Assembly: GCF_001507595.1 (NCBI RefSeq)
Contig: NZ_LQBQ01000034.1
Location: forward strand, 124,001 to 188,000
DNA length: 64,000 bases
From: Ruegeria marisrubri
Lineage (GTDB): Bacteria; Pseudomonadota; Alphaproteobacteria; Rhodobacterales; Rhodobacteraceae
Reading direction: 5' to 3'
Part shown: positions 5,200 to 63,360 of the stretch, in pieces
Layout of the letters: each line of letters opens with the position of its first letter
How positions within the stretch are numbered: position 1 is the first letter of the stretch
The notes under the pieces: generated by a model
What the model saw: only the letters and a program-made list of their open reading frames with translations
Told to the model about the DNA's origin: nothing
Databases searched by the model: none
Made by a program: the position numbers and the translations under genes

Positions 5200-6282
5200 T
5201 CAGCGGACCTTCAGCGTCGCCAGGCCGATCATCGCCAGGATCAGAGAGATGATCCAGAAACGGATCACGATGGTCGGCTCGGCCCAGCCCTTCTTTTCAT
5301 AGTGGTGATGGATCGGCGCCATCAGGAACACACGCTTGCCGGTGCGCTTGAAATAGAGCACCTGGATGATCACGCTGAGCGCCTCGACCACGAACAGGCC
5401 GCCGACGATCGCCAGCACCAGTTCGTGCTTGGTCGCCACCGCGATGGCGCCCAGCGCGCCGCCCAGCGCCAATGAGCCGGTATCGCCCATGAACACCGCA
5501 GCCGGCGGCGCGTTGTACCACAGGAAGCCCAGCCCCCCGCCAAAGAGCGCCGCGGTGAAGATCAGGATCTCGCCCGTTCCCGGCACGTAGTGCACGTCGA
5601 GATATTCGGTGAAGTCCACGCGCCCCACCGCATAGGCGATCACGCCAAGGGTCGAGGCGGCGATCATCGCGGGCATGATCGCCAGCCCGTCCAGTCCGTC
5701 GGTCAGGTTCACCGCGTTGGCCGCGCCGACGATCACCACGATCGCGAACGGCACATAGAAGTAGCCAAGATTGATCAGCGTGTCCTTGAACACCGGCAGC
5801 GCCAGCTGGTTCTGCAGCTCGGCGGGGTGATTGTAGGCCGCCCAGAGCGCGGCGATGACGGCGATGATGATGCCCAGCGCAAGACGCACCTTGCCCGGAA
5901 CGCCCCTGGTGTTCTGCTTTGAAACCTTTGAATAATCGTCCGCGAAACCGATGGCCGCATAGGCCAGCGTGACGAACAGCACCAGCCAGACAAAGGGATT
6001 GTCCCACCGCGCCCACAGCAGCGTCGAGGTGACCAGCGCCCCCACGATCAACAGCCCGCCCATGGTCGGTGTGCCCGCCTTGGAGAAATGCGCCTCGGGG
6101 CCGTCATCGCGGATCGGCTGGCCCTTGCCCTGTTTCTTGCGCAACACGTTGATCAGCGGCTTGCCGAAGATGAACCCGAACACCAGCGCCGTCAGAAAGG
6201 CACCGCCCGCCCGGAAGGTGATGTAGCGAAAGAGGTTGAAAAAGTCCCCTCCGTCCGACAGGGCGGTCAACCAGTAGAGCAT
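5200..6282 (-). CDS. mraY: MraY, phospho-MurNAc-pentapeptide translocase
   Basis: Integral membrane enzyme that joins phospho-MurNAc-pentapeptide to undecaprenyl phosphate, forming lipid I. The 360 residues match the family length. Catalytic and signature motifs are all present: [30 protein letters not shown] and the histidine run [12 protein letters not shown], set among about ten hydrophobic helices. The start [10 protein letters not shown] is the usual Rhodobacterales form. It lies 24 bases after murF and upstream of murD in the dcw order. Confidence 0.98.
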
Positions 6283-6306
6283 CTCGATACCTTCCTCAGT
6301 CGCGTA

Positions 6307-7701
6307 TCAGTGTTCAAGCGCGGGCCCATGCCCCATTTTGCGGACGCCGTCAACGATCCGGGCCAGCCCCATGCTGAGCGAGCCCTTGGCCAGCACCACG
6401 TCGCCGGCCTGCACCAGCTGCGGCAGGTGGTCGGCCATCTCGGCGCTGGTTTCGGTCCACAGGCCACGTTTGTCCTCGGGCAGTGCCGCGTGCAGCGCCC
6501 GCATCAGCGGGCCGATGCAATGCACCTTGTCCACCCGTTCCATCGCCTCCAGCCCGGCCATGTCGGCGTGCATGGCCTCGGCCTGCGGCCCCAGTTCCTT
6601 CATGTCGCCCAGAAAGGCGATACGGCGCGCGCCCTCGGCCCCGGCAACCACGTCCAGCGCCGCCGCCATCGAGGTGGGGTTGGCGTTGTAGCTGTCGTCC
6701 AGCAGCTCGATCTGCCCGCCATCCTTCAGGGACAGCTTCTCGCGCACGCCGCGCCCCTTGACCGGGGACCATTTGCGCAGCCCGGCGATTGCGCTGTCCA
6801 GATCGACGCCCAGCGCGACGCAGGCCGCCAGCGCGGCCAGCCCGTTCATGGCGAAATGGGTGCCGGCCGACTGCACGTCGAAGGCGATCGCCCGGCCATA
6901 AACATCTGCCGTGGCGTGGATCGAGTCGGAGGACTGGGTGACGCCGGTCAGCGTGTAGTCGGTGGCGGTGCGGCCGAAATCGACGATCACGGCGCCGTGC
7001 CGGGCCGCACAGGTGCGCAGGATGTCGGTGTGGTCGATATCGGCATTCACCACGGCGGTGCCGCCGGACTCGAGCCCTTCGAAGATGGCGGCCTTTTCAT
7101 GGGCGATTCCCGCGACCGAGTCGAAGGCTTCGAGGTGAACTGCGGCCACGGTGGTGACCAGCGCCACATGGGGGCGGGCCTGACGGGCCAGCGGCGCGAT
7201 TTCGCCGGGATGGTTCATGCCGATCTCGATCACGGCGAACTCGGTGTCGCGCGGCATCCGAGCCAGGGTCAGCGGAACGCCCCAGTGGTTGTTGTAGCTG
7301 GCGACGCTGGCATGGGTGCGGCCATGTTCGGCGAGGATGGTGGCCAGCATCTCCTTGGTCGAGGTCTTGCCCACGCTGCCGGTGACGGCGACGACCTGCG
7401 CCCTGCAGCGGTCGCGCGCGGCCTGGCCCAGCGCCTCGAGCGCGGTCTGCACGTCTTCGACGATCAGCAGCGGCGCGTCCTCAGCCACGCCTTCGGGCAC
7501 GCGCGAGACCAGCGCGGCAGCGGCGCCCTTTTCCAGCGCCTGCGCCACGAAATCATGCCCGTCCCGCGCCGCCCTGAGCGCCACGAACAGATCGCCGGGC
7601 TGAAGGGTTCTGGTGTCGATCGACACGCCGCTGGCCTGCCAGTCGGTGGTGGCGCGGCCCTTGGTGGCACGGGCGGCCTCGGCCGCGGTCCAGAGCGTCA
7701 T
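6307..7701 (-). CDS. murF: MurF, UDP-MurNAc-tripeptide:D-Ala-D-Ala ligase
   Basis: Cytoplasmic Mur ligase that adds D-Ala-D-Ala to the UDP-MurNAc-tripeptide. The 464-residue product contains the ATP loop VTGSVGKTSTKEML near residue 107, the central motif EIGMNHPGEI, and the C-terminal LLDDSYNANPTSM typical of MurF. The ATG overlaps the stop of murE by four bases (ATGA), showing translational coupling. Length and motif order are complete. Confidence 0.97.
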   Translation of the reverse strand: MTLWTAAEAARATKGRATTDWQASGVSIDTRTLQPGDLFVALRAARDGHDFVAQALEKGAAAALVSRVPEGVAEDAPLLIVEDVQTALEALGQAARDRCRAQVVAVTGSVGKTSTKEMLATILAEHGRTHASVASYNNHWGVPLTLARMPRDTEFAVIEIGMNHPGEIAPLARQARPHVALVTTVAAVHLEAFDSVAGIAHEKAAIFEGLESGGTAVVNADIDHTDILRTCAARHGAVIVDFGRTATDYTLTGVTQSSDSIHATADVYGRAIAFDVQSAGTHFAMNGLAALAACVALGVDLDSAIAGLRKWSPVKGRGVREKLSLKDGGQIELLDDSYNANPTSMAAALDVVAGAEGARRIAFLGDMKELGPQAEAMHADMAGLEAMERVDKVHCIGPLMRALHAALPEDKRGLWTETSAEMADHLPQLVQAGDVVLAKGSLSMGLARIVDGVRKMGHGPALEH

Positions 7702-9179
7702 GCGACCCTCCCGTCCAGAGCGGCCACCGCGATGCTGGCCTGCTCGACATCGTCGAAGGGCAGGATCTGGTCGCCCACGATCTGCCCGGTTTCATGCCCC
7801 TTGCCCGCGATCAGCAGCGCGTCGCCCGGTTGCAGCGCGTCGATGCCGCGCAGGATCGCCTCGGCCCGGTCGCCCACCTCGTAGGCCTCGGGCGCGCCCT
7901 CCATGACGGCGGCGCGGATCTGCGCCGGGTCCTCGCTGCGGGGGTTGTCGTCGGTGACATAGACCACGTCGGCATTCTCGGCCGCGGCCTGGCCCATAAG
8001 CGGGCGCTTGGTGGCATCGCGGTCGCCGCCCGCGCCGACGATGGCGATCAGCCGGCCCATGACATGCGGGCGCAGCGCCCTGAGCGCGGTGGCCACGGCA
8101 TCGGGCGTATGGGCGTAATCGACGTAGACCGCCGCGCCGTTGCTGCGGGTCGCGGCCAGCTGCATCCGGCCCCGGACAGTGGTCAGGTGCGGCAGGGTCT
8201 CGAATACGCGCGCCGGGTCGTCGCCGCTGGTGATGGCGAGCCCGCAGGCCAGCAGCACGTTTTCCGCCTGGAAGCCGCCGATCAGGTTCAGCCGGGCCTG
8301 GAAGGTCTTGCCCCAGAGGGTAAAGCGCAGGTCCTGCCCCGTCGCGTCGAAACGCTGGTTCAGAAGGCACAGATCGCCTCCGGCGCGGCCGACCGTCAGG
8401 ATGTGCTGCCCGCGTGCTGCCGCAATGGCGCGCATCTCGTTGCCCTTCGGGTCGTCGAGGTTGATTACCGCGGTTCCGTCCGGCGGCAGCACCCGGCGGA
8501 ACAGCCCGGCCTTGGCCGCGAAATAGGCGTCGAACGTCTTGTGGTAATCCAGATGATCCTGGGTGAAGTTCGTGAACGCCGCCGCCGTCAGACGCACCCC
8601 GTCCAGCCGACGCTGTTCCAGCCCGTGCGACGAGGCCTCCATCGCCGCGTGGGTGATGCCGGCCTCGGCCGCCTCGGCCAGGCAACGGTGCAGGGTGATC
8701 GGGTCGGGCGTGGTATGGGCCAGCGGCGCGGTCCATGCCCCCTCGACGCCGGTGGTGCCCAGATTGATGGCGGGATGGCCCAGTTCGGTCCAGATCTGGC
8801 GCACGAAGGTCGAAACCGAGGTCTTGCCGTTGGTTCCGGTCACCGCGACGATCGTTTCGGGCTGAGCGCCGAACCACAGGGCGGCGGTATAGGCCAGCGC
8901 CTGCCTTGGGTCTTCGGCGATCACCAGCGCGGCGTCCGAGGCGGCCAGTTCGCTGGCCGCGATCTCGGCCCCCTGCGCGTCGGTCAGGATGGCGGCCGCA
9001 CCCATGCGCAGCGCATATTGGATGAACTCGCCGCCATGAACCCGCGTTCCGGGCAGGGCGGCGAACAGATAGCCCTCTTTCACCTCGCGGCTGTCGATGG
9101 CCAGACCGGTGATGTCGGGGTTTTTCCCTTCGCGCGCGGTCAGGGCCAGTTGGTTAAGTTTCTTCGACCTCTCGCCCAT
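7698..9179 (-). CDS. murE: MurE, UDP-MurNAc-L-Ala-D-Glu:meso-diaminopimelate ligase
   Basis: Mur ligase adding the third stem-peptide residue. The 493-residue product has the ATP loop VAVTGTNGKTSVSTF near residue 115 and the specificity loop DNPRSEDP near residue 408. DNPR marks meso-diaminopimelate rather than lysine as substrate, fitting a Gram-negative wall. The start MGERSKKLNQL gives the usual length. ftsI ends 21 bases upstream and murF overlaps the stop, so the three form one transcript block. Confidence 0.97.
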   Translation of the reverse strand: MGERSKKLNQLALTAREGKNPDITGLAIDSREVKEGYLFAALPGTRVHGGEFIQYALRMGAAAILTDAQGAEIAASELAASDAALVIAEDPRQALAYTAALWFGAQPETIVAVTGTNGKTSVSTFVRQIWTELGHPAINLGTTGVEGAWTAPLAHTTPDPITLHRCLAEAAEAGITHAAMEASSHGLEQRRLDGVRLTAAAFTNFTQDHLDYHKTFDAYFAAKAGLFRRVLPPDGTAVINLDDPKGNEMRAIAAARGQHILTVGRAGGDLCLLNQRFDATGQDLRFTLWGKTFQARLNLIGGFQAENVLLACGLAITSGDDPARVFETLPHLTTVRGRMQLAATRSNGAAVYVDYAHTPDAVATALRALRPHVMGRLIAIVGAGGDRDATKRPLMGQAAAENADVVYVTDDNPRSEDPAQIRAAVMEGAPEAYEVGDRAEAILRGIDALQPGDALLIAGKGHETGQIVGDQILPFDDVEQASIAVAALDGRVA

Positions 9180-26364: not shown

Positions 26365-27126
26365 ATGCTGAAAACCCGCATCATCCCCTGCCTCGACGTG
26401 GCCGATGGCCGCGTGGTCAAAGGCGTGAACTTCGTCGGCCTGCGCGATGCGGGCGACCCGGTGGAATCGGCCAAGGCCTATGACGCGGCCGGGGCGGACG
26501 AGATCTGTTTCCTCGACATCCATGCCACCCACGAAAACCGCGGCACCATGTTCGACGTGGTGCAGCGCACCGCCGAGCAGTGTTTCGTGCCCCTGACCGT
26601 GGGCGGCGGCGTCCGCAGCAAGGAGGACGTGCGCAACCTGCTGCTTGCCGGCGCCGACAAGGTCAGTTTCAACTCTGCCGCAGTTGCGAATCCCGACGTG
26701 GTGGCCGAGGCCGCCGACCAGTTCGGCAGCCAGTGCATCGTCTGCGCCATCGACGCCAAGACGGTCAGCCCCGGCAAGTGGGAGATCTTCACCCATGGCG
26801 GCCGCAGGCCCACCGGCATTGATGCTGTCGAATTTGCCAAGACCGTCGTCGCCAAGGGCGCGGGCGAGATCCTGCTGACCTCGATGGACCGCGACGGCAC
26901 CAAGGCCGGCTTCAACATTCCCCTCACCCGCGCCATTTCCGACGCCGTGAACGTGCCGGTGATCGCTTCGGGCGGGGTCGGCAACCTGGACCACCTCGTC
27001 GAGGGCGTGACCAAGGGCGGCGCCAGCGCGGTGCTGGCCGCTTCGATTTTCCATTTCGGCGAATACACGATCCGCGAGGCCAAGGAACACATGGCCGCCG
27101 CGGGCATCCCCATGAGGCTGACATGA
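26365..27126 (+). CDS. hisF: HisF, cyclase subunit of imidazole glycerol phosphate synthase
   Basis: Uses ammonia from HisH to make imidazole-glycerol phosphate and AICAR. The 253-residue barrel has the catalytic Asp in [15 protein letters not shown] and in [14 protein letters not shown], and phosphate loops TVGGGVRS and IASGGVGN. hisE starts four bases before the stop (ATGA overlap). Confidence 0.98.
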
Positions 27127-51441: not shown

Positions 51442-52253
51442 GGTGCTATCAGACAGATTCTAACCAGTCTCCACAAGGACAGGATGCTTGCCCTTTATTC
51501 CGCGCAGAGACCGCGCCACTCGGCGAGGGCGGCGCGGTTCAGCTTGAAATTTGGTCTTGAGGAGAGGCTTCTCTCCGAATTGAACAGGTTGTAGACCGAG
51601 GCGTGGACGGCGGCGAATTTCTGTAAACTTCGCATCCGCCGGAAACGCAACATCGCTCGTTCTCGTCGTCGGAAAGGCAGGTGCGAATTCTCAGCGCGGT
51701 TGTTCGCCCAGCGTCCCGTCTCCTGCCGATGGTCAGCGCCCAGCTCTTTCAGAGCGGCGCCATAGGATCTGAGTCGATCAGTAACAATGATCTCGGGGCA
51801 TCCGTGCTTGCGCATTGCTTTCCTTAGGAATTTCAGCGCGGCCTTCTTGTCACGCGTCTTTGTGACGAAGCTTTCCAGAACCTCGCCTTCGTGATCGACG
51901 GCGCGCCACAGGTAACGACGTTCACCGTTGATCTTCACGAACATCTCGTCGAGGTGCCAGCGCCAGCGGCTCGACTTCAGGCCCTCGACGCGACGTTTTC
52001 TGATCTCATTGGCGAACAGCGGACCAAACCGGTGCCACCAGAACCGGATCGTCTCGTGGCTGACGTCGATACCGCGTTCATGGAGCAGGTCTTCGACATT
52101 GCGAAGCGAGAGCGGGAAGCGAACGTACAGCATCACGGCCAGCCGGATGATCTCGGGGCTGGTCTTGAAGTACTTGAACGGGGATCTCTTCGTCATAATC
52201 GGACGTTAGGTGGCGCCTGCCTCCGCGGCAAGCCGTGTTCCTCTGACAGGGCC
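51442..52253 (-). mobile_element. IS6-family insertion sequence
   Basis: About 812 bp bounded by imperfect inverted repeats: GGTGCTATCAGA at the left end and, reading inward from the right, GGCCCTGTCAGA. One transposase gene fills it. IS6 elements usually make an 8-bp target duplication; none is seen (CAGGTGGC left, GATTTAAA right), so flanking DNA was rearranged or lost, as after replicative fusion or deletion. It truncates the gene remnant to its right. Confidence 0.8.
51495..52196 (-). CDS. IS6-family DDE transposase
   Basis: A 233-residue transposase. N-terminal HTH (DLLHERGIDVSHETIRFWWHR), DDE residues in WHLDEMFVKINGERRYLWRA, IVTDRLRSYGAAL and NNRAENSHLPFRRRERAM. Length and motifs match IS26/IS6100 relatives. 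It looks intact and may be active. Confidence 0.95.
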   Translation of the reverse strand: MTKRSPFKYFKTSPEIIRLAVMLYVRFPLSLRNVEDLLHERGIDVSHETIRFWWHRFGPLFANEIRKRRVEGLKSSRWRWHLDEMFVKINGERRYLWRAVDHEGEVLESFVTKTRDKKAALKFLRKAMRKHGCPEIIVTDRLRSYGAALKELGADHRQETGRWANNRAENSHLPFRRRERAMLRFRRMRSLQKFAAVHASVYNLFNSERSLSSRPNFKLNRAALAEWRGLCAE

Positions 52254-52670: not shown

Positions 52671-53600
52671 TCATACCTGTTGGTCCCGAAGCGGATCGGT
52701 TGCGAAATTTTTGCGCAGACTGCGCGTCAGTGTGGTGGTGTTTGCGAAGCCGCAACGCAGAGCAACCTGATCGGTTGAGAGGTCGCTGTAGCGGAGCAGT
52801 TCGCGGGCACGAGCCAGACGAAGCAGTAAGTAGTATCGCCCCGGTGTGGTCTGCAATTCTGCCCAGAACAGACGGCGTAAGGACCGTTCGGATATATTGG
52901 CCTGTTCCGCCAGTAAAGGGATAGATTGCGTCGTTTCGAGCGCTTCGGACATGAGAACCACGACTCGCTTAAGCCGTGGCGACACCGCTTGTGACAAGGC
53001 CTGATCGGGATAGGAGGCACCGTGGCGTCTGGCGTTATCGTGCAGGAACATTGCACCAGCGTCAAACGCGATAGGGGCACCGAACCGATCCCGAATGAAT
53101 AGAAGCATCAGATCAAGAGCCGCTGCAGCGCTGCCACATGACCAGAAACGCCCATCCTGCACATGGCGGTCAGGGAGAACCTCAACTTTGGGAAACTCCT
53201 CAGCGAACTCCTCAAGCAGCTGCCAATGCAACGTAGCCTTCCGAGCGTTCAAGAACCCACCTCGCGCCAAAACCCAGGCACCGGTATCGGCGGCGATCAC
53301 TGTTGCGCCCTGCATCAATTGTCCAAGATTGCGAGTGGGGGTCATACCTTTGACGTCGCGAAAAGCGTCGCCACCAATGATAATGACCAGATCGGGTTTG
53401 GGGGAGTCCGCGATCGGCATTTCCGGTGAAACGCTCAAACCGCTGGAGCTGGTCACAGCACGGTCACCATCTGTCAGGATGTTCCAGCGGATATCTGCAC
53501 CAGTTTGATCGCGCACCACCCGCAACGGTTCAAGCAGGCAGGCAAGCACCATGTTGGAAAAGGCATCGCATAGGAAAATAGAGACGTGGATGGAGCGCAC
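52671..53600 (-). CDS. GlxA-family (DJ-1/PfpI plus AraC) transcriptional regulator
   Basis: A 309-residue regulator with an N-terminal class I amidotransferase-like domain lacking catalysis (VHVSIFLCDAFSNMVLA-like start, PDLVIIIGGDAF, TVIAADTGAWVLARGGFL) and a C-terminal AraC HTH pair (IPLLAEQANISERSLRRLFWAEL, TDQVALRCGFANTTTLTRSLRKNF). Relatives (GbdR, CdhR, ArgR types) control glycine betaine, carnitine and amino-acid catabolism. It faces away from the CoA-transferase gene with about 100 bases between, and is likely its regulator. Confidence 0.9.
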   Translation of the reverse strand: MRSIHVSIFLCDAFSNMVLACLLEPLRVVRDQTGADIRWNILTDGDRAVTSSSGLSVSPEMPIADSPKPDLVIIIGGDAFRDVKGMTPTRNLGQLMQGATVIAADTGAWVLARGGFLNARKATLHWQLLEEFAEEFPKVEVLPDRHVQDGRFWSCGSAAAALDLMLLFIRDRFGAPIAFDAGAMFLHDNARRHGASYPDQALSQAVSPRLKRVVVLMSEALETTQSIPLLAEQANISERSLRRLFWAELQTTPGRYYLLLRLARARELLRYSDLSTDQVALRCGFANTTTLTRSLRKNFATDPLRDQQV

Positions 53601-53700
53601 TGGCAGAACTGATCCTATTTTTGGCAGGATAAGTATGAAGCAGGCTCGATGAATTTGCTAGAGTCATTGGTAAAGCCCACCAGATTAGGATCAATTGACC

Positions 53701-56181
53701 ATGCAGAACCGCCCGCTTTCCCACATTCGTGTCGTTGATTTCGGGCATTATCTGGCCGGGCCGTTGGTTGGTATGATGCTGGCTGATCTAGGGGCCGAGG
53801 TCATCCGTATTGATCCGCCAGGTGGCCCACGATGGCAGGATCCAGCTTTTGATATGCTGTCGCGTGGCAAGCGCGCGCTGACGCTTGATCTCAAGACGGA
53901 CGAAGGGCGCGATACAGCACTTGATCTGGTCTGCCGCGCAGACGTTGTTATCGACAACTTTCGCCCGGGCGTGATGAAGCGACTGGGGCTTGGACCGGAC
54001 GCGCTTAGACAGGCAAACGCTGATATCGTTTCGCTGTCGCTTCCCGGTTTCGCGTCAACCGACCCGGATCTCGCTGGGATAGCAGCCTGGGAGGCAGTGA
54101 TTGCGGCGCGGACTGGGCAATTCACCGATATGGGGCTGAACCGTCAGCTGATGGGGATCAACCCATCTTTTACACCGTTGGGTCTGGCCTCGGCCTATGG
54201 TGCCGCATTCGGCGCGATGGCGGTCTTATTTGCATTGACCGCGCGATCCCAAATGGGAGGCGATCACATTGAGGTGCCGCTTGCGTCTGCCCTGCTGGAA
54301 GGGCTGGTTTATAATTGCGAACAGATTGAAAACTATCCCGACCGCTACAAATCCCCACGTGAGTTGGAGCTGGAGCGGCGGGAACACAAGGGCCTGCCCA
54401 ATAACCTAAGCTTTGCCGAGCTGTCCGAATTTCTTGATCCGTTCTATCGGACCTACACCTGTGCCGATGGACGTGGGTTCTATATCGTGTCCTGCTCGAT
54501 CGTGAACCACCCCCAAAGGGTGCTTGAAGTTTTGGGGCTTGGCGATCTGTTGAAAGACCTGCCGGACTTTGATGTCTATGTCGATCAGGCGGATTGGCCC
54601 GGGGATTGGGCGCTGCGCAGTTATCCGGTGGGGTCGGGTGATCGCAAACGCCTGTCGGATGCGATGAAAGCGGCCTTTCTGACCCGCCCCTCGCATGAGT
54701 GGGAAACGCTGTTTGGCGCAGCCAAAGCCCCGGCCACGGCACAACGCAGCACCGCCGAATGGTTGGCCGATCCGCACGCGCTGGCCTCGGGGCTAGTGAT
54801 CGAACTTGACGATCCCCGCCACGGACGGATGCATCAAATGGGCAATGTCGCGTGGTTGGCAGATGATCAGCGTGCAATGGAAAAAAACGCCGGGCCGGAG
54901 AGTGATGACTTTCGCGATGAGCTGGACGGCGTTCTTGCAGAGCCGCCGCGAAGGCCCAAGAGCGGCGACGGAAAGGGCATGTGGCTTGACGGTTTGAAGG
55001 TGCTGGACCTGACCAATGTCATTGCCGGTCCGACCATTGGGTCGACACTGTCGCGGTTCGGGGCGCAGGTCACGCTGGTCCAGCCAGTGCGGCCTTCGGT
55101 CGACCCATGGAACGCGGTGGTGTTCGGGCTGCATGCGCAGCGCGGCAAGGAAAGCGTGCTGCTCGATCTGCGCTCGGAACAGGGACAAGGGGCGCTTAGA
55201 CGAATGTTAGCCGAGGTTGATGTGGTTACCATGAACGGGACTGATCAACAGCGACAGGCGCTGGGTTTGACCGAGGCGCAACTGAAGGAAATCAACCCAC
55301 GGCTCATTCTGGTGCAGTTGGATGCCTGGGGCGGGCCGCGTCGGGGGGCGAAATCTGACCACCTTGGCTATGACGACCTTGCGCAGGCAGCGACGGGTGT
55401 GATGACCCGCTTTGGAGGTGGGCCCAAAACACCCGAGGAACACGCACATTTCGGCACCATCGACGCCCTCACTGGACATTGCGCCTGTGTTGCCCTTGGC
55501 GCGGCGCTGGAGCGGCTGAGGGTCACTGGCAAAGGCGGTATTGCCCGCGCTTCACTGGCTGCTGCAGGCGAAATGATTCAGGCTCAATTCATGTATGATT
55601 TCGAGGGACGCTCGGCATTTGATGAGCCTTCAGGGCGTTCGGTGCAGGGTTGGGGGCCGTTCTACCGTTGCTATATGGCTGAAGAGGGCTGGATGTTCTT
55701 TGCGGCGCCAACGGAACGGGAAGCGGCCCTGAAACGGGTGCCCGATCTGGCAGATCTTATCGGAAAGGATGACACCGAACTGGAAGATGCACTTGTCGAG
55801 CGGTTTGCGCATAGACCCGTAGCCGACTGGGTGCGTGCTTTTGCCGGTGGGTCGGTCGGGATCACACCTCTTGGCTCGCTCCACGGTACACGCGATGAAG
55901 GGTTGCAGCGTGAAAGCGAGGGCAAGATCGACATCTCCCAGGCGACCTTTCGTACGGTGCGCCATGATCAGCACCCGATGGGGAGGTGGGTAGACCTCGT
56001 CGCACCCAATGCGGTGCGGCCCGAGAAAGCCAAGATCACCATCCCAGGACCTGCCCCGAAGTATGGTCAGGACACGCGGGCCATCCTTACGCGCCTGGGC
56101 TATGCAGACGATGAAATCGGGCGCATGATTGAAAGCGGCGCGGCTGCGGAAAGCTGGTCGGATAAATATCTGCCGGAGTAG
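53701..56181 (+). CDS. Fused two-domain class III (CaiB/BaiF-type) CoA-transferase
   Basis: An 826-residue protein made of two CaiB/BaiF-type halves. First half: VVDFGHYLAGPLVGMMLADLGAEVIRI, ADVVIDNFRPGVMKRLGLG; second half from about residue 425: LDGLKVLDLTNVIAGPTIGSTLSRFGAQVTLVQP. In class III transferases an Asp forms the acyl anhydride. The second half keeps it in GTIDALTG (Asp588), while the matching site of the first half reads LASAYG (Ser164), so probably only half two is catalytic. It would activate a carboxylic acid with CoA. Start ATG at 53701 behind AGGATCAATTGACC; a TTG six bases earlier is possible. Confidence 0.88.
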   Translation: MQNRPLSHIRVVDFGHYLAGPLVGMMLADLGAEVIRIDPPGGPRWQDPAFDMLSRGKRALTLDLKTDEGRDTALDLVCRADVVIDNFRPGVMKRLGLGPDALRQANADIVSLSLPGFASTDPDLAGIAAWEAVIAARTGQFTDMGLNRQLMGINPSFTPLGLASAYGAAFGAMAVLFALTARSQMGGDHIEVPLASALLEGLVYNCEQIENYPDRYKSPRELELERREHKGLPNNLSFAELSEFLDPFYRTYTCADGRGFYIVSCSIVNHPQRVLEVLGLGDLLKDLPDFDVYVDQADWPGDWALRSYPVGSGDRKRLSDAMKAAFLTRPSHEWETLFGAAKAPATAQRSTAEWLADPHALASGLVIELDDPRHGRMHQMGNVAWLADDQRAMEKNAGPESDDFRDELDGVLAEPPRRPKSGDGKGMWLDGLKVLDLTNVIAGPTIGSTLSRFGAQVTLVQPVRPSVDPWNAVVFGLHAQRGKESVLLDLRSEQGQGALRRMLAEVDVVTMNGTDQQRQALGLTEAQLKEINPRLILVQLDAWGGPRRGAKSDHLGYDDLAQAATGVMTRFGGGPKTPEEHAHFGTIDALTGHCACVALGAALERLRVTGKGGIARASLAAAGEMIQAQFMYDFEGRSAFDEPSGRSVQGWGPFYRCYMAEEGWMFFAAPTEREAALKRVPDLADLIGKDDTELEDALVERFAHRPVADWVRAFAGGSVGITPLGSLHGTRDEGLQRESEGKIDISQATFRTVRHDQHPMGRWVDLVAPNAVRPEKAKITIPGPAPKYGQDTRAILTRLGYADDEIGRMIESGAAAESWSDKYLPE

Positions 56182-56185
56182 ACAT

Positions 56186-57829
56186 TTGACACAAGACCAC
56201 CCTGGAACGGCCACCACGCCTCGCACCCGCGCCAAAGCGCGTCACATCCTTGACAATTACTATATCGGCCCTGCGCGCGATGACGCCGTGTTGGAAATCT
56301 GGGGCTATACCCCAGAGATGAGCTATGCCCCCGGCGACTGCGTCGCGCTGCATGTGTCGACCACGGCGGATGAATGGGAGTTTGAGATCGGCCGTGACGG
56401 GCTGGACTATGTGCCATTGCTGACCAAGAGCGGCCTGCCGGGGAGGCACCACCCAACGCCCCGGGATTGCTCGGTCAAGGGCTGCGGCTGGCCCGAGGCC
56501 TATGCCTTCACCATTCCCGATGATTGGGCACCGGGCGGTTATCTGGTCACGTTTCGCGCCCGGAAAGGCAAAGATATGGTTGAAGAACACCATGTCATCC
56601 TGATCAGAAGCGCTACCGATGCCGCCCCTCCGCCTTATGTGCTGGTCTGTGCGACGGGCACCTGGCTGGCCTATAACTGCTGGGGCGGGTCCAATCACTA
56701 CGAGGGCATCACCGGGCCCAATGGCGATGCCTTTTCTCCCATCGTCTCGACACAACGGCCATGGACGCGCGGGTTTTGCAAACTGCCCGAGGGCGCGCCA
56801 CGCGCGCTGCGCGAACAGCCTGCCAAACCCGGCGAGATGGTGCGTTACCCTTATATGGAGTGGGCCTATGCCTATGGCTATTCCAAGAAATATGCCTCGG
56901 CGGGCTGGGCAAGCTACGAACGTCATTTCGCCCGCTGGGCAGAGGCTGAGGGCTACGACTTCGACGTGATCTCTCAATACGATCTGCACTGCGACTCTGA
57001 TCTTCTGAACCGCTACAGCTGCGCCGTGTTCGTTGGCCACGATGAATACTGGAGTTCCGAGATGCGCGATGCCGTCGATGCCTATGTCGAAACGGGTGGC
57101 CATGTCGCGCGGTTTGCCGGGAATTTCCTGTGGCAGACCCGGATCGAGGACGAAGGCCGCACGCAGGTTTGTTACAAATATATCGCGGATCAGGACCCTT
57201 TGGTGAGGACGGATCAAGAGCACCTTGTCTCCGGCGCATTCGAGGTGGAGCCGGTCAACCGTCCCGGTGCTTTGACCTTCGGTGTCAACGCCCTGCGCGG
57301 GATCTATTCCGGGCTTGGCAATTGTGTTGGCGGCGGCGCGGGTGGCTTTACAATTTACCGAGACTCTCATTGGGCCTTTGACGATGCCGGGCTTGGCTAT
57401 GGCGACGTGTTGGGCTCTGGCTCGCGCATATTCGGCTATGAGGTCGACGGGCTGGACTATCACTTCGAGGATGGATTGCCCTTTCCCACCTGCTCGGACG
57501 GTGCTGTGCCAGAGATCGAAATCCTCGCCATGGGGCTGGCCACCAACATCGAGGCTGATCACGGCGTCTGGGGCGAAACGCTCTATATCGGCGCGGCGGA
57601 CGCCGCGTTCAAAGCACAGGCTCTATTCGGAGAGGTCACACCCGAAACCTTGGACGCCTGCAAACGCGGCAACGGAATGATCGTCTCTTGGCCGCGTAGC
57701 AAGGGCGAAATTTTCACCGCCGCAACCTGTGAATGGGTCGCGGGCCTGATCCGGCAAGATACCCAAGTCGAACAGATCACACGCAACGTCTTGAACAGGT
57801 TTGGCAAATCGAAGGAGCGCTCACGGTAA
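56186..57829 (+). CDS. N,N-dimethylformamidase large-subunit-like protein
   Basis: A 547-residue protein matching the large (beta) subunit of N,N-dimethylformamidase, an iron amidohydrolase whose Fe is held by two Tyr and one Glu. Features: N-terminal IWGYTPEMSYAPGDCVALHV (immunoglobulin-like part), YVLVCATGTWLAYNCWGGSNHY, FVGHDEYWSSEMRDAVDAYV with Tyr288 in DEYW as a candidate ligand, and GGHVARFAGNFLWQTRIEDEG. No ATG fits: a TTG at 56186, eight bases after GGAG and five bases past the CoA-transferase stop, is the likely start. No small subunit gene is present nearby, so it may work alone or on another substrate than formamides. Its end overlaps the LysR gene tail to tail by nine bases. Confidence 0.82.
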   Translation: MTQDHPGTATTPRTRAKARHILDNYYIGPARDDAVLEIWGYTPEMSYAPGDCVALHVSTTADEWEFEIGRDGLDYVPLLTKSGLPGRHHPTPRDCSVKGCGWPEAYAFTIPDDWAPGGYLVTFRARKGKDMVEEHHVILIRSATDAAPPPYVLVCATGTWLAYNCWGGSNHYEGITGPNGDAFSPIVSTQRPWTRGFCKLPEGAPRALREQPAKPGEMVRYPYMEWAYAYGYSKKYASAGWASYERHFARWAEAEGYDFDVISQYDLHCDSDLLNRYSCAVFVGHDEYWSSEMRDAVDAYVETGGHVARFAGNFLWQTRIEDEGRTQVCYKYIADQDPLVRTDQEHLVSGAFEVEPVNRPGALTFGVNALRGIYSGLGNCVGGGAGGFTIYRDSHWAFDDAGLGYGDVLGSGSRIFGYEVDGLDYHFEDGLPFPTCSDGAVPEIEILAMGLATNIEADHGVWGETLYIGAADAAFKAQALFGEVTPETLDACKRGNGMIVSWPRSKGEIFTAATCEWVAGLIRQDTQVEQITRNVLNRFGKSKERSR

Positions 57830-58684
57830 CTTCTGCGCCTGCTCGAGTAACCAAACTCTGAAGGCGGCAACATCCTTGTCCACATCCTTTTCACTGAACA
57901 AAAAATAGTTCAACGGCGACGGTGCAGCGAATTCCGAGATCGCGCGCAGGCGACCCGACTTGATGAGTGCGTTGGCAAATGGCGCAAACCCCAATGCGAT
58001 ACCACGGCCATGCGCTGCTGCTTCAAGCACGATATTTGGATCATCGAAAACCTCCCCTTGCATCGCAAAATCTGCAGGACCGCCAGCGCAAGCAAGCCAA
58101 TCCTGCCAGGGTTTGCGGGTCCGATAGTGAAGCGGCGGCAAGTCTTGTTCCCACACTGGAATGTCGACTGCAAAGTCCGCCCGCGCGACGGGCACCATCG
58201 ATGCCGAAAAGAGCTGCACTGCATGACGCGTAGCAACTGACGGTTCGGTCCACCAGATCGCCAGATCGGTATTCGCGAAATCAGGTTTGCCGATGTGATG
58301 AACCAATTCGACTCTGACGTTCTGGTGGATTTTCTCGTATTCGGACAACAGCGGCATGAGCCAGGTCACCGAAAGAAAGGGCCCAATGGACACCCGTAGG
58401 CTACGCTGCTCTGTGGTCTTTTCGATCGCACGACCCAAGATATCGAAGGCTTCCTTCGATGCGTTGCGCAAGCGATATCCGGCTTCCGTTAACACGACCA
58501 CACTATGATCACGACGAAACAACTGTTGTCCCAGTGCCACCTCAAGTCGCTTGATCCGGTGGCTAACTGCCGATGTCGTTACCCCAAGCTCTTGTGCTGC
58601 AAGGGAAAAGTTCAGATGCGCGGCAACGCGGTCGAAATAGACCAGGGCACCAACAAAAGAAGGGTCGCGGAGCTTTGGTTGCAT
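57821..58684 (-). CDS. LysR-family (GcvA-like) transcriptional regulator
   Basis: A 287-residue regulator starting MQPKLRDPSFVGALVYFDRV. HTH: LNFSLAAQELGVTTSAVSHRIKRLEVALG; effector domain of the GcvA type (LRVSIGPFLSVTWLMPLLSEY, DLAIWWTE). Divergent from the dioxygenase gene, with a TTGACA-N12-TGTCAA palindrome between them. A second ATG 15 bases upstream is possible. It likely controls the 58794-61845 operon. Confidence 0.9.
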   Translation of the reverse strand: MQPKLRDPSFVGALVYFDRVAAHLNFSLAAQELGVTTSAVSHRIKRLEVALGQQLFRRDHSVVVLTEAGYRLRNASKEAFDILGRAIEKTTEQRSLRVSIGPFLSVTWLMPLLSEYEKIHQNVRVELVHHIGKPDFANTDLAIWWTEPSVATRHAVQLFSASMVPVARADFAVDIPVWEQDLPPLHYRTRKPWQDWLACAGGPADFAMQGEVFDDPNIVLEAAAHGRGIALGFAPFANALIKSGRLRAISEFAAPSPLNYFLFSEKDVDKDVAAFRVWLLEQAQKLP

Positions 58685-58720
58685 AGTTGTTGGCCCCATG
58701 TTGAGCTTAGCTAAACAACC

Positions 58721-58744
58721 TTGACATGATTTCTCATTTGTCAA
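58721..58744. promoter_or_regulatory. Candidate LysR operator
   Basis: TTGACA (58721-58726) and TGTCAA (58739-58744) form a perfect inverted repeat with 12 bases between, in the spacer between the LysR and dioxygenase starts. Symmetry and place fit a LysR-type binding site; the left arm could also act as a -35 for rightward transcription. Confidence 0.5.
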
Positions 58745-58793
58745 CGATAAACGCTGGTCGCATCCTGTCGAAAACACACAAAGGGCAACTGAC

Positions 58794-59975
58794 ATGCTGA
58801 AACAGATCGACGCCTGTGAAATCCAAGATATTGAGTTCACACCAGAGCGAATGGTCGTGGATTGGACGGATGGCCATCGAAGTGAATTCCCGTCGATTTG
58901 GCTTTTACATGCCTGCGACTGCGATGCATGTGGGCCAAGTGAAACCGGGCTGCGACATGTCCAGCTAACGCAGCAACCGTCACGTCCGCAAATCATCTCG
59001 GCTTACAGGCAAGATGGGCATGCATACGTCGATTGGGGGAATGGCCATATATCCAGATTCGCGCCGGTCTGGTTGCGGGGCCATTGCCTGTCTGATCGCG
59101 AACGCCTGCACCGCCACCCCCCTGCACAGCCTTGGGGTGCAGAAATGGCGGATCGTTTGACCTACTTCTCTTATACAGATGTCGCCTCAGACTCCGATTG
59201 TCATCTGGCTTTCCTCGAAACCCTGCGCGATGATGGCGTCCTGATCTTAAAGGATGTTCCCGCGTCCCGTGAGCGAACCGAAGAGATTGCCGGACTTGTC
59301 GGCAGACTACATCTGACCAATTACGGCATTTTCGAACTGGAATCGAAGCCCAAACCCGAGATTGCGGGCGACATGGCCATAGCGCTGGAATTGCATACGG
59401 ATGAGCCTTACCGCATCGAAATCCCGGCGATTACCTTTTTCCACGTTCTCAAACAATCGGATGCCGGGGGCGATAGCACCATGGCGGATGGGCTTTGGCT
59501 TGCCAAACGGTTGGAAGAGAAGAACCCTCGGGCTTTCGAGATACTGAAAACCGTAAAGGCACGCCACAACCGAACCCTGAAGGAGGGACGAGCCTTTGAT
59601 GTGCAGGCCCCGATCTTCCCTACAGACAGCTACGGACGCGTCACCGGCCTGCGGATCAATGACCGGGGCATGGCACCGGTGGATTGCCCGGTCGATCTAG
59701 TCGAGCCCTTCTACGATGCGTTGCGCGAGTTGCTTGAAATGATCTATTCCGGTGAAGGACGTGTCACAGTGAAACTACAGGAAGGCGAGATGATGGTGTT
59801 CAACAATCAGCGCCTCTTGCACGGTCGCGAAGGCTTTGACCCGGCCCGCTCGCATCGTCACGTGCGCAGCTGTCATGTGGACCTTGATGAATTTCACTCG
59901 CGGCTGCGTGTAGCCTACCGGGCGCGTGGGCGTTTGGAGGCTTGGCGGCACATGTCGTCCATGGCACACTTATGA
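58794..59975 (+). CDS. Gamma-butyrobetaine-hydroxylase-like 2-oxoglutarate/Fe(II) dioxygenase
   Basis: A 393-residue enzyme with the two-part BBOX/TMLH layout: an N-terminal GBBH-like Zn domain with WLLHACDCDACGPSE, then a TauD-type barrel. The Fe(II) triad is visible as His201-Thr-Asp203 in ELHTDEPYR and His343 in RLLHGREGFDP; the 2-oxoglutarate Arg is likely in SHRHVRSCHVDLDE. Family members hydroxylate gamma-butyrobetaine or trimethyllysine; the exact substrate is open. First gene of an operon with tight overlaps. Confidence 0.88.
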   Translation: MLKQIDACEIQDIEFTPERMVVDWTDGHRSEFPSIWLLHACDCDACGPSETGLRHVQLTQQPSRPQIISAYRQDGHAYVDWGNGHISRFAPVWLRGHCLSDRERLHRHPPAQPWGAEMADRLTYFSYTDVASDSDCHLAFLETLRDDGVLILKDVPASRERTEEIAGLVGRLHLTNYGIFELESKPKPEIAGDMAIALELHTDEPYRIEIPAITFFHVLKQSDAGGDSTMADGLWLAKRLEEKNPRAFEILKTVKARHNRTLKEGRAFDVQAPIFPTDSYGRVTGLRINDRGMAPVDCPVDLVEPFYDALRELLEMIYSGEGRVTVKLQEGEMMVFNNQRLLHGREGFDPARSHRHVRSCHVDLDEFHSRLRVAYRARGRLEAWRHMSSMAHL

Positions 59976-61063
59976 GCCCGCAACAGTTCCGCCTGCTCTG
60001 CCTGCCAGGCGACGGGATCGGGCCCGAAGTGATTCAGGCAGCGCTCGGCGTTTTGCAGGCCATTGCTCCGGCATTGGATCGTCCAGTCGAGATCACCCAC
60101 GATCTTGCAGGGGGAGCCTGCTATGAGGCGCATGGGGTATTTCTGCGCGACGAAACGATGGAACTGGCACGACAGTCTGATGCGATCCTGTTTGGTGCCG
60201 AAGGCGGCCCCGGCTGGGACAACCTCAATATTCCGGGCGGACCGACAGCGCGTAGCGGTCTGTCGCGGCTGCGCAAGGAGCTTGACCTTTTTGCCAATCT
60301 TCGCCCGGTCAGATCTTGGCCTTTGCCCGCTGAGCAAACACCTTTTCGGCCCGAGCTCGTGTCCGGTGCCGATCTCTTGGTCTTTCGCGAAAACACCTCA
60401 GGCATCTATTTCGGAGAGCCCCGCGGGATATTCGAGCACGGTGACAGGCGACACGCCATCGACACCCAGTATTATGCGCAAGGTGAGATTGATCGCGCAG
60501 CGCAATTGGCGTTCGCGGTGGCTGCCGATCGACGCGGCAAGGTGACCTCGGTCGATAAGGCCAACGTCATGGAAACCGGGGAGCTGTGGCGCGAAAGGGT
60601 AGATGTCATCCACCGCACGCACTGGCCTCAGGTCGAACTGGATCATCTTTATGCCGATGCCTGTCTGTTTGAACTGGTCCGCGCCCCCTGCCGTTTTGAC
60701 GTGATCCTCGCAGACAACCTCTTTGGCGATCTTCTGTCGGATTGCGCTGCAGCCATTGCGGGATCGTTGGGTATGCTGCCATCTGCCTCACTGGGTCCTG
60801 AGCGTGCGGATGGGACGCGGGCTGCACTCTACGAACCGGTGCACGGCTCCGCGCCCGACATCGCCGGAAAAGGCATCGCCAATCCGGCGGCGGCAATCCT
60901 GAGTGTTGGCATGATGTTGGACCTAAGCTTGGGGCGCAAGGACCTAGCCGCGCGTGTCGAGAATGCGGTTGATAATGTCCTTGCTGAGGGTCAGTTGACG
61001 CGAGATCTGGGAGGATCAGCAACGACGAACGATTTCGCCAACTCTGTAGTGGCAAAACTTTGA
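59972..61063 (+). CDS. Isopropylmalate/tartrate-dehydrogenase-like beta-decarboxylating enzyme
   Basis: A 363-residue NAD(P)-dependent dehydrogenase of the LeuB/isocitrate family. Motifs: [80 protein letters not shown] and [15 protein letters not shown]. The ATG at 59972 overlaps the dioxygenase stop (ATGA). Because it sits in a catabolic cluster without leuACD, it probably oxidatively decarboxylates a beta-hydroxy acid other than isopropylmalate, such as a malate or tartrate derivative. Confidence 0.88.
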
Positions 61064-61845
61064 GACATGTCGGTGACCGATCCCGAAAAGCGGACACGCT
61101 GTTCATTCACGGCTTTGGCGGCGCGCCTGATCATTGGAATGACCTTCGAGAGATGCTTCCGCCAGACCTGCGCGGCCGCGCCCTTACTTTGCCGGGACAC
61201 GCAACGCGTGCCAGCGAGCCGGGCGAGTTTTCCATCGAAGCCGCGGCCCAAGAGATTATTGAGCAGTCCATTTGCGAACGTACGATATTGGTCGGCCACA
61301 GCATGGGAACACGCATCGCGGCCGAGATCGCTTTCCGAGCACAGCCGCTTGTACATGCAATAATTCTGATCGACGGCAGCTGTGTCCCGACCAACGCCGA
61401 CCTCGCGGCGGGCTCGATCAAAAAGGCCCTCAGGACACGTGGAAAAGCAGAATTGGTCAACGCACTGATCAATGAAGCGCTTCCAGGCAACTTACCAGAC
61501 GGGCTACGATCGGATCTTACCAAAACGATGAACGCAATGACTGATGAGGCAATGGTAGATTACTCTGCATCCATGGCCAATTGGGACAGCAAAAAGTGCC
61601 TTACGAGGATTTCAGCGATTACATGCCCCGTGTTGGTTCTTCAAAGTACGAGATATACCACAGTAGCCCCCATCAGGCGGCAGAGCATCCGCGAAGACCC
61701 AAGCTCGATTTGGTATGACGCTTGGCGACTCTCTCCGAATACTCAGCAGCTGACTCTGCCAAACAGCGGACACTATCTTGCACAGGAACGCCCAGGCGCA
61801 GTTGCAAACGCAATCTGCGACTTTGTTGCAAGGTCGCAAGCATGA
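61060..61845 (+). CDS. Alpha/beta hydrolase
   Basis: A 261-residue hydrolase with a TTG start overlapping the dehydrogenase stop (TTGA). Oxyanion region LFIHGFGGAPDHW, nucleophile elbow GHSMG (Ser81), catalytic His238 in NSGHYLAQERPG, Asp likely near PVLVLQ. Esterase, thioesterase or C-C hydrolase activities share this pattern. As last gene of the operon it may cleave an ester or CoA thioester intermediate. Confidence 0.85.
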   Translation: MRHVGDRSRKADTLFIHGFGGAPDHWNDLREMLPPDLRGRALTLPGHATRASEPGEFSIEAAAQEIIEQSICERTILVGHSMGTRIAAEIAFRAQPLVHAIILIDGSCVPTNADLAAGSIKKALRTRGKAELVNALINEALPGNLPDGLRSDLTKTMNAMTDEAMVDYSASMANWDSKKCLTRISAITCPVLVLQSTRYTTVAPIRRQSIREDPSSIWYDAWRLSPNTQQLTLPNSGHYLAQERPGAVANAICDFVARSQA

Positions 61846-62256
61846 AAATTGAGCAAATCTCACGACTCATTAAGTTAAATGGCGTGTTTGTTTCCGCGGG
61901 GCACACCAGTTCTCGTTTGCAGAGACGTAATTCCAATAGTTTCCGGCCAAACCGCGTTGCGAGCCAATAAATGTGCTTCTTGCTTAAACGGACCTTTGTT
62001 CATTCTGCAGCATCGGTGAGTCTGGGCTCTTTCGTTGAATTCGCCGTGCGCTGTACGAACGGCGGGTCTTGCTTGGCGTAGGATTTCACACTCTCCCGCA
62101 AAGGACCCGTGCTCCGCCGGAATTGCCCACTGCATTGCAGAAGGAAATGCGGCCAATCAGGTAGAGCGCAGAGGTGTTTCGACGGGCATTGCCCCGGTCG
62201 CGGATACTGTCGTCTTTGGTTTGTAGGCAGCGCGGAATCTCGTCAATGGTGCCTGA
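61846..62256. other. Non-coding spacer after the catabolic operon
   Basis: No gene on either strand can be supported; composition is AT-richer than the neighbours. No strong terminator hairpin was found after the hydrolase gene. Confidence 0.4.
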
Positions 62257-63360
62257 CTAGACGCCCGCAATCGTCATTTTACGCCAATGGGCAGGAGATA
62301 CACCAACCGCTTTCTTGAACATCCGACTGAACGCCGCCTCCGATTTGTAACCGATCTCGCACGCGACGCTCGCCACCTTCATGGAACTGTCTGCAAGAAG
62401 GCGAGCGGCAATCTGCATGCGCCAGAGCGTCAGGTACTGCATCGGAGAGTGCCCGATCAGGTGGGTGAAGCGCGCTACCATGGCGGAACGGGACATGCCC
62501 GCCTCTTCGGCCAGCAGGGCCAGCGTCCAGGGATCGGCTGGGCGGTCGTGGATCAGGGTCAGGACCCTGCCGATGGCCGGATCGCGTAGCCCCGACAGCC
62601 AACCGGTGTCGTGCGCAGGCAGCGAGTCCAGGTAGAGGCGGATGACCTCAACGAAGATCAGTTCGCTCAGCCGCAGGCGGATGGCTTCGCCGCCCATCCG
62701 CGGCAGGCGGGCGTCGGCAAGCGTCAGGTCGATCAGGCGGTCCAGCAGACCCCGCCGGTCCCGTCCGGACCGTCGGACGCGCAGCAACGGCGGAAGGGTC
62801 GAGAGCACCGGATTGAACGGGCGCAGGTCGCAGCCGAGAAAACCGCACATGTATTCGGCGCCGCCCGCGCCACCGCCACCTTCGCGGGTCACGAAAGACA
62901 ACTTGCCCGCCATCCACTCTCGGAAGAAACCGATGGTCGCCGCGCGGTCGTATTCGGGCGTCTGCCCTGGCGTGCTGAGCAGCGAATAGGGGTCACCGTG
63001 GGCCAGCACCAGGATGTCGCCAGCCTCGAACGAGGTCGAAGCGCCGCCCGGAATGCCCGCCCAGCCCGAGCCTTTCAGGATGATGTGGTAAGAGATTACA
63101 TGCTGCGCGCGGGGCAGGATGATCGAAGAGTAGTCACGCGCCCGGGGGACATCCACGCCCCAAGGAAACGTCGCCTCAACTAGGTGGAACACTGCGCCGG
63201 TCAGCTTCACCATCCGCAGCACGTCGGACAGCGGGTCGGTCGCCGAGTCCTGACAGAGGACTGGCATGTCGGCCGTGCCCTGCGCGCCGGGGGGCGGCTG
63301 GTGCTGAACCGTGGACGATCCAGCATGCGATAGAGACGTCTGGTCATGGGTCCGAACCAT
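62257..63360 (-). CDS. AraC-family regulator with cupin sensor domain
   Basis: A 367-residue regulator with an N-terminal cupin_6-type domain (DPLSDVLRMVKLTGAVFHLV, ISYHIILKGSGWAGIPGGAS, FEAGDILVLAHGDPYSL) and a C-terminal HTH pair (TLALLAEEAGMSRSAMVARFTHLIG, VASVACEIGYKSEAAFSRMFKKAVG). Relatives sense small oxidised or aromatic compounds. An in-frame ATG at 63267 would give 336 residues and a more usual N-terminus. Divergent from the methyltransferase gene. Confidence 0.88.
   Translation of the reverse strand: MVRTHDQTSLSHAGSSTVQHQPPPGAQGTADMPVLCQDSATDPLSDVLRMVKLTGAVFHLVEATFPWGVDVPRARDYSSIILPRAQHVISYHIILKGSGWAGIPGGASTSFEAGDILVLAHGDPYSLLSTPGQTPEYDRAATIGFFREWMAGKLSFVTREGGGGAGGAEYMCGFLGCDLRPFNPVLSTLPPLLRVRRSGRDRRGLLDRLIDLTLADARLPRMGGEAIRLRLSELIFVEVIRLYLDSLPAHDTGWLSGLRDPAIGRVLTLIHDRPADPWTLALLAEEAGMSRSAMVARFTHLIGHSPMQYLTLWRMQIAARLLADSSMKVASVACEIGYKSEAAFSRMFKKAVGVSPAHWRKMTIAGV

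Follow-up and report, generated by a model that had tools for sequence, protein, structure and literature searches.

Betaine-like and sulfonium compounds make up a large part of the labile organic matter in the sea, and dddD, which encodes a coenzyme A (CoA)-transferase acting on dimethylsulfoniopropionate (DMSP), serves as a genetic marker of dimethyl sulfide release. The dimethylformamidase that degrades N,N-dimethylformamide (DMF) has its small-subunit gene beside the large one. Its iron site includes Y399 and E521, and H519 and N547 are needed for activity (PMC7686228); dddD has been described in clusters with dddT, dddB, and dddC (PMC8163506); and the gamma-butyrobetaine dioxygenase BBOX contacts its substrate through W181, Y177, Y366, and N292 (PMC12067446). 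Relatives of these enzymes were found together in a 64,000-nucleotide stretch of Ruegeria marisrubri, hereafter called the window, where seven genes, all of them open reading frames, lie at 52671..61845. Pfam and NCBIfam profile scans agreed for all seven with the families named in a preliminary description of this DNA, and each of the two gene sets has its own regulator, as that description had it. Unit 1 consists of a GlxA-type regulator, a fused class III CoA-transferase, and a dimethylformamidase-fold (DMFA) protein. Unit 2 consists of a LysR regulator, an Fe(II)/2-oxoglutarate dioxygenase of the BBOX/TmpA superfamily, and a dehydrogenase resembling isopropylmalate dehydrogenase (LeuB-like), and is followed by an alpha/beta hydrolase.

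Judged from homology and gene context, the two gene sets probably break down an amide-linked, betaine-like compound. Our preferred account, which we hold tentatively, is that of an acquired peripheral catabolic island with two separately regulated modules, sometimes used together, for an amide-linked onium compound. The preliminary description knew of no pathway with this gene set. In the open-licence literature, judged by titles and abstract starts, none of the matches listed on dimethylformamidase, DddD paralogues, or butyrobetaine dioxygenase clustered with isopropylmalate dehydrogenase described the set; the one match on dimethylformamidase and Roseobacter dealt with DMF methylotrophy. Compared loci and genomes are labelled L and G, respectively.

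Conservation of unit 1

Species genomes were scanned with the DMFA protein, which confirmed 267 relatives, and the best 80 loci were kept; the flanks of some of these were short. At a threshold of >60% identity the CoA-transferase was present in 29 of the 80 loci, and in 25 of the 29 it lay directly beside the DMFA gene on the same strand. In the remaining loci a binding-protein gene (L027 and L035), transporter genes (L036), or a gap of 321 bases (L030) separated the two. The GlxA gene was detected by tblastn at 19 of the 29 CoA-transferase loci and at none of the remaining 51 (Fisher P = 2e-11). By its gene order, unit 1 is thus a conserved module. Its hosts were mainly genera of the Roseobacter group, but it was also present in Nitratireductor, Halomonas, Rhizobium, and Shinella and on plasmid pDSHI01 of Dinoroseobacter shibae; the L036 copy comes from a short contig assigned to the cyanobacterium Phormidium willei, and this contig may be a contaminant. 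A DMFA relative occurred in 28 of 394 family genomes, so unit 1 is an accessory module. In Ruegeria sp. THAF33 (L118) a CoA-transferase with 72% identity was observed that had no annotated DMFA gene alongside.

Relation of the CoA-transferase to DddD

The window CoA-transferase and DddD share two fused class III CoA-transferase domains, an Asp in the C-terminal domain only, and 40-46% identity. This Asp, which we take to be the nucleophile in DddD, was part of a GTID motif (GTLD in one protein) in the C-terminal domain of all 22 transferases aligned, while Ser stands at the matching N-terminal place of the CoA-transferase. Among plasmid records, the matches of the enzyme were 87% identical in D. 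shibae, 72-75% in Shinella and Ruegeria, and 40-46% elsewhere. Six proteins at 40-46% were called the DddD clade from their gene neighbours, following the published dddD/dddT/dddB/dddC clusters (PMC8163506), and they stand in the tree in place of a characterised DddD sequence. The unrooted tree separated 16 sequences of the unit 1 type from these six by a branch of 0.91 with support of 1.0, and 27 differences were fixed between the two sets; the 16 include the L118 protein and the L016 protein, from which the first 82 residues are absent. The window enzyme was 70-87% identical to the 15 others of its own group and 40-46% identical to the DddD clade.

The gene partners also differed. The six DddD-clade regions contained a GMC oxidoreductase gene (5/6), a methylmalonate-semialdehyde dehydrogenase gene (2/6), or a BCCT gene (2/6), and no match to DMFA or GlxA at 1e-20, whereas GlxA and DMFA are the partners of the window transferase. 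Among the 29 unit 1 loci, a DddA-type GMC oxidoreductase was found once (39%, 5.7 kb off), a BCCT-like gene once (27%), and a DddC-like semialdehyde dehydrogenase never; the iron-type alcohol dehydrogenase DddB was not included in the search. GMC oxidoreductase, DddC-like, and BCCT-like genes were all absent beside the window genes.

D. shibae has a single full-length two-domain transferase, which is encoded on pDSHI01 at NC_009955.1 33247-35727 (L116 12004-14484) and is the orthologue of the window enzyme. Dshi_3624 and Dshi_3626 are located at 26518 and 27457 of this plasmid (PMC4886583), and counting genes from these positions identifies the transferase as Dshi_3632. This gene has been named DddD (PMC3789786), a name based on its 43% identity to Halomonas DddD (PMC4069834, Table 4), and D. 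shibae has been said to encode DddD, its feeding result being ascribed to DddD together with DddL (PMC7934745). The available text of these three papers contains no activity test of Dshi_3632. By the tree, Dshi_3632 is in the DMFA-linked group, outside the DddD clade, and its published name may be wrong.

These data bear on another explanation, in which unit 1 serves DMSP cleavage: the transferase would be a genuine DddD, with dimethyl sulfide and 3-hydroxypropionyl-CoA as its products, and both DMFA and unit 2 would be bystanders. The shared domain architecture, the C-terminal Asp, the 40-46% identity, and the published naming of the D. shibae gene are all in line with it, but the separate grouping, the fixed differences, and the other set of partner genes make it unlikely. 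If the transferase is indeed a different enzyme, the DddD label of Dshi_3632 would be an error, and surveys in which genes of this kind are taken for DMSP lyases would give figures that are too high; with such lookalikes, set beside another partner gene, in many roseobacters, the way DddD is counted as a marker would have to change.

The DMFA-fold protein

Structural alignment showed that the DMFA protein has the fold of the dimethylformamidase/N-acyl-beta-amino acid acylase superfamily, with 21-23% identity to the dimethylformamidase large subunit (6LVB) and N-acetyl-(R)-beta-phenylalanine acylase (8HUY/8I5A). At 547 residues it is shorter than these proteins, which have about 760. The equivalents of Y399, E521, H519, and N547 are Y163, E287, H285, and N313, respectively, all invariant in 13 sequences. 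Y440 (the second Tyr ligand) and E657 (the proposed base) fell outside the profile alignment, and Y172 and E419 are invariant candidates for them by eye. Unlike in the DMF-degrading enzyme, no small-subunit gene is adjacent: the cluster has no room for one, and 61846-62256 contains no open reading frame of at least 120 amino acids. The preliminary description had deduced an amide bond from a formamidase homologue; on the evidence of the fold and the conserved residues, the protein is a member of an amide-hydrolase family, but that family is wider than DMF.

Two substrate types were considered for this protein and rejected. For N-formyl or N-methylformamide intermediates of the trigonelline or homarine type, no ring-opening gene was identified; an emericedin-like N-acyl aminocarnitine was suggested by the acylase relative, and no evidence for it was found. 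The Mesorhizobium DMFA loci (about 50% identical) were rejected as instances of unit 1: the genes linked to DMFA there encode an aminotransferase and a histone-deacetylase-family protein, not the transferase. DMFA relatives were also seen beside sulfatase-family genes at L034 7511-8947 and L048 8377-9924; the former is a sulfatase by Pfam, with the choline-sulfatase model under its cut-off, and the latter belongs to the same BLAST cluster.

Dioxygenase and LeuB-like dehydrogenase of unit 2

The dioxygenase subfamily is rare. A search with one sequence at 1e-80, which missed G270, found it in at least 2 of 394 family genomes, and a profile search, which found G270, in 4 of 390 order genomes. 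In all seven Rhodobacterales loci (the window, L084, L016, L030, L145, L146, and L147) the dioxygenase gene was followed by the LeuB-like gene, and a related LysR gene was divergent from it; the LysR of L084 is a 191-residue open frame, and the dioxygenase of L147 reads as two open frames and was excluded from the residue counts. Unit 2, too, is a conserved module by gene order. Because the dioxygenase and LeuB-like genes are consecutive in 7/7 loci and the CoA-transferase and DMFA genes are neighbours in 25/29, the set is not a chance assembly.

The dioxygenase had been described as BBOX-like, which held at the superfamily level and failed at the family level: it scored 252.4 bits against the gamma-butyrobetaine dioxygenase model TIGR02409 (cut-off 414.75) and 243.3 bits against the TmpA model NF049936 (cut-off 400), and it was also under the TMLH cut-off. 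With BBOX and TmpA it shares the Fe ligands, the 2-oxoglutarate Arg, and the N-terminal GBBH domain, and with human BBOX the C/C/C/H positions, which are absent from TmpA; H202, D204, H347, and R360 were kept throughout the subfamily. The residues were compared with those of human BBOX, TmpA, DfmD, the TmpA-scoring enzyme of the same genome, and a second BBOX-like protein of L146. Position 194 was Asp in 6/6 subfamily members and Tyr or Phe in the five comparators, and position 366 was His or Ser in 6/6 and Tyr in the five comparators. Position 181 was still aromatic, position 177 was Tyr or Phe, and N292 was kept in 5/6. Tyr194 of BBOX is presumably a cage residue that contacts butyrobetaine. 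The changes at 194 and 366 argue against butyrobetaine as the substrate, and the earlier assignment to a butyrobetaine/trimethyllysine type was not upheld.

A search of the taxonomic class for BBOX relatives gave 11 matches outside the genome itself, of which eight were examined (G835, G932, and G1008 were left out). Two further members from another order, L189 and L190, had Asp and His at positions 194 and 366, a class II aldolase-like neighbour, and no LeuB match. Six more distant relatives had Tyr (three), Ser, Gln, or Glu at 194 and Tyr (four), His, or Phe at 366. Counting L147, in which residue 194 went unread, Asp194-type dioxygenases adjoined a LeuB-like gene in seven loci; in two others the adjoining gene was class II aldolase-like. 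It is plausible that either neighbour provides a C-C-cleaving step after hydroxylation. The two Asp194-type genes beside an aldolase-like gene are at L190 7431-9002 and L189 about 2699-3463, and in L190 the same reading frame extends further, into a region that by eye resembles a second oxygenase domain.

The LeuB-like protein scored 396.6 bits against TIGR00169, above the cut-off of 353.2. It was about 51% identical to canonical LeuB, of which only two sequences were taken into the tree, and 49-52% identical to the other LeuB-like subclade. It is an extra copy, since another LeuB (53% identical) is encoded on contig 23 of the same genome, and it is coupled to the dioxygenase. In addition, the LeuB-like proteins have GL(S/T)RLR (GLSRLR in the window) where the two canonical proteins have GLLRLR and GLLGIR, so that the second Leu of GLL is Ser or Thr in 7/7 LeuB-like and Leu in 2/2 canonical sequences. 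We take this Leu to form part of the hydrophobic pocket for the isopropyl group; its replacement suggests a substrate substituent more polar than isopropyl.

Some further genes were observed near unit 2 in other genomes. Next to unit 2 in L146, at 5691-7921, a class II aldolase gene and the second BBOX-like gene overlap, and this locus also has a class IV aminotransferase and GlxA. An aminotransferase of the same BLAST cluster lies beside the DMFA gene of G270, far from its unit 2. A 379-residue protein with no Pfam or NCBIfam match is encoded near unit 2 in two genomes, at L147 4426-5565 and L167 12482-13621, the latter being the same place as the start of L146.

Association of the two units

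The preliminary description had proposed a neighbourhood search and held that co-occurrence in this genome alone would count against the set. The search found the two units side by side in L016 too, and in L030 with the genes arranged differently, which makes three genomes and two gene orders. In L146 a DMFA gene shares the cluster of the dioxygenase/LeuB-like pair; in these four loci the DMFA gene is within 10 kb of unit 2. A DMFA match at 1e-203 or better was present in six of the seven unit 2 genomes versus 28 of 394 family genomes, the query and threshold differing between the two counts. With L016, L030, and the window removed, three of the four remaining unit 2 genomes (G004, G430, G496, and G270) had DMFA (binomial P = 0.0014 versus 28/394). 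From this pattern of co-occurrence, both modules likely serve one substrate.

The G+C content of the cluster was 0.580 versus 0.634 in the rest of the window, and unit 1 of D. shibae is on a conjugative plasmid, pDSHI01, beside an IS91 transposase and an integrase. Together with the IS6-family transposase next to the cluster and the patchy presence of DMFA (28/394), these data suggest horizontal transfer, and the stretch is probably an acquired island.

Substrate class and proposed pathway

The neighbours of unit 1 in other genomes were surveyed for its substrate class. In L011 a BKACE gene, a carnitine-dehydrogenase/thioesterase fusion, an Opp-type transporter, the CoA-transferase, and DMFA form one row; L025 has the same row minus the CoA-transferase, and the L036 contig begins at a dehydrogenase that scores 715 bits against the carnitine 3-dehydrogenase model, above its cut-off of 592. 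A BCCT-like gene follows unit 1 in Halomonas (L023), an MttB-like gene adjoins it in Roseibium (L022), and TRAP DctM genes were within the flank in 5/29 unit 1 loci. This gene context points to an onium or betaine-like substrate. The betaine-like substrate guessed in the preliminary description therefore fits unit 1, although the butyrobetaine/trimethyllysine role given there to the dioxygenase found no support; of that interpretation as a whole, the association of the gene sets elsewhere and the betaine-like fit survived, and the identity of the dioxygenase and the place of the hydrolase did not.

Two further lines of carnitine support were discarded. At the genome level, carnitine dehydrogenase was over the cut-off in 27 of 28 genomes (27 of the 28 with unit 1, L025 without the transferase, and L027 left out), but it was also found in 283 of 394 genomes of the family, hence is not diagnostic. 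The BKACE of L018, a locus with the same neighbours as L013, scored as the 3-oxoadipate enzyme. In the window cluster BKACE and carnitine dehydrogenase are absent; the genome has a separate GlxA/BKACE/carnitine dehydrogenase locus elsewhere (L135). A dioxygenase that passes both the TmpA and BBOX curated cut-offs is encoded at L137 9450-10646, on contig 37 of the same genome.

In the pathway that we propose, the DMFA-fold enzyme would use a ferric centre to hydrolyse an N-acyl (amide) bond. Next, the DddD-like transferase would load CoA, probably from an acyl-CoA donor, onto the carboxylate of the onium or betaine-like acid set free in this step; like DddD, it may in addition eliminate a leaving group. 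The unit 2 dioxygenase would hydroxylate a carbon of a carboxylate other than butyrobetaine, and the LeuB-like enzyme would couple oxidation of the new hydroxyl to beta-decarboxylation; a substituted succinate would in this way be turned into a substituted malate and finally a 2-oxo acid. GlxA and LysR would switch on their respective modules upon substrate or intermediate. To our knowledge, no described catabolic pathway uses such a dioxygenase and dehydrogenase pair to turn an unactivated carboxylate into a 2-oxo acid; if the pair works in this way, the route would be a compact one. It is possible, though we regard it as rather doubtful, that the locus encodes a pathway not described before, for an onium metabolite with an amide link, in which a DddD paralogue without DMSP lyase function works with a ferric amidase, and a dioxygenase whose cage tyrosines have given way to Asp and His/Ser works with a LeuB paralogue to hydroxylate and oxidatively decarboxylate a substituted succinate.

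Evidence against a joint island and alternative readings

Several observations weigh against an acquired island for an onium compound. Regarding the substrate, 51 of the 80 DMFA loci lacked such a transferase, and their annotated neighbours included a sulfatase, peptidases, aminotransferases, and a histone-deacetylase-family protein; with such varied neighbours, the DMFA family is not bound to onium compounds. The BCCT-like (L023) and MttB-like (L022) genes scored under their NCBIfam cut-offs, carnitine dehydrogenase is common in the family, as noted above, and D. shibae, which has unit 1, had no carnitine 3-dehydrogenase match at 1e-150. Regarding the joint use of the units, L016 and L030 were found through DMFA, which biases the count, and at L016 no match to the missing start of the transferase was found upstream and GlxA was not found by tblastn. 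DMFA was within 10 kb of unit 2 in only one (L146) of the four genomes left after their removal and that of the window, G004 had no DMFA match at 1e-60, and the L146 and G270 loci had DMFA of about 49% identity and no transferase. L145 and L084 have unit 2 with no unit 1 nearby, and 27 of the 29 unit 1 loci had no unit 2 within the flank; the modules, being found singly, also work apart.

Units found alone (unit 2 in G004 and L145, unit 1 in the 27 loci), each with its own regulator, would also be expected of two unrelated accessory catabolic operons that came to lie side by side by chance on an acquired island. However, adjacency in three genomes and two orders, DMFA with unit 2 in a fourth, and the occurrence of DMFA in three of the four unit 2 genomes found without DMFA, versus 28/394, make this improbable. 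A variant carnitine/butyrobetaine pathway, in which the LeuB-like enzyme would oxidise and decarboxylate carnitine formed by the dioxygenase, and betainyl-CoA would be recycled by the CoA-transferase, is consistent with the GlxA-type regulator and the rows in L011 and, in part, L025 and L036, but is very unlikely given His/Ser and Asp in place of Tyr366 and Tyr194, the separate carnitine locus and TmpA/BBOX-passing dioxygenase of the same genome, and the lack of the carnitine 3-dehydrogenase match in D. shibae.

Gene layout and neighbouring features

The positions of the genes are given in Table 1. The preliminary description spoke of facing transcription units, but the genes form two tandem divergent pairs, GlxA(-)/CoA-transferase(+) and LysR(-)/dioxygenase(+), with both operons in the + direction; the only convergent pair is DMFA(+)/LysR(-), with a 9-base overlap (57821-57829). 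The start of the LeuB-like gene overlaps the stop of the dioxygenase gene (ATGA). The top NCBIfam model of the GlxA-type regulator was GbdR, with 183 bits, below the cut-off of 480, and that of the window LysR was GcvA, also scoring under its cut-off.

Table 1. Genes of the Ruegeria marisrubri locus and the adjacent transposase (window positions)
Feature	Position	Strand	Profile match or remark
IS6-family transposase beside the cluster	51495..52196	-	NF033587, 207.5 bits (cut-off 125)
GlxA-type regulator of unit 1	52671..53600	-	Pfam DJ-1_PfpI and HTH_18 (AraC HTH)
Fused two-domain class III (CaiB/BaiF) CoA-transferase, DddD paralogue	53701..56181	+	Two CoA_transf_3 stretches
Dimethylformamidase-fold amide hydrolase, shortened	56186..57829	+	DMFA2_C; 4 bases behind CoA-transferase
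LysR (GcvA-like) regulator	57821..58684	-	HTH_1 and LysR_substrate; divergent from unit 2
Fe(II)/2-oxoglutarate dioxygenase, BBOX/TmpA superfamily	58794..59975	+	GBBH-like_N and TauD
Isopropylmalate-dehydrogenase-like (LeuB-like) beta-decarboxylating dehydrogenase	59972..61063	+	Iso_dh, 2e-114
Alpha/beta hydrolase, accessory	61060..61845	+	Abhydrolase_6; start overlaps LeuB-like stop

The terminal hydrolase had been counted as a pathway member, but it was not conserved: tblastn at 1e-5 over the 196 loci compared found no homologue outside the genome itself, and among these loci the gene is in the window only. Just past the cluster, at 62257-63360 of the window, lies a gene for an AraC-type regulator with a Cupin_6 domain.

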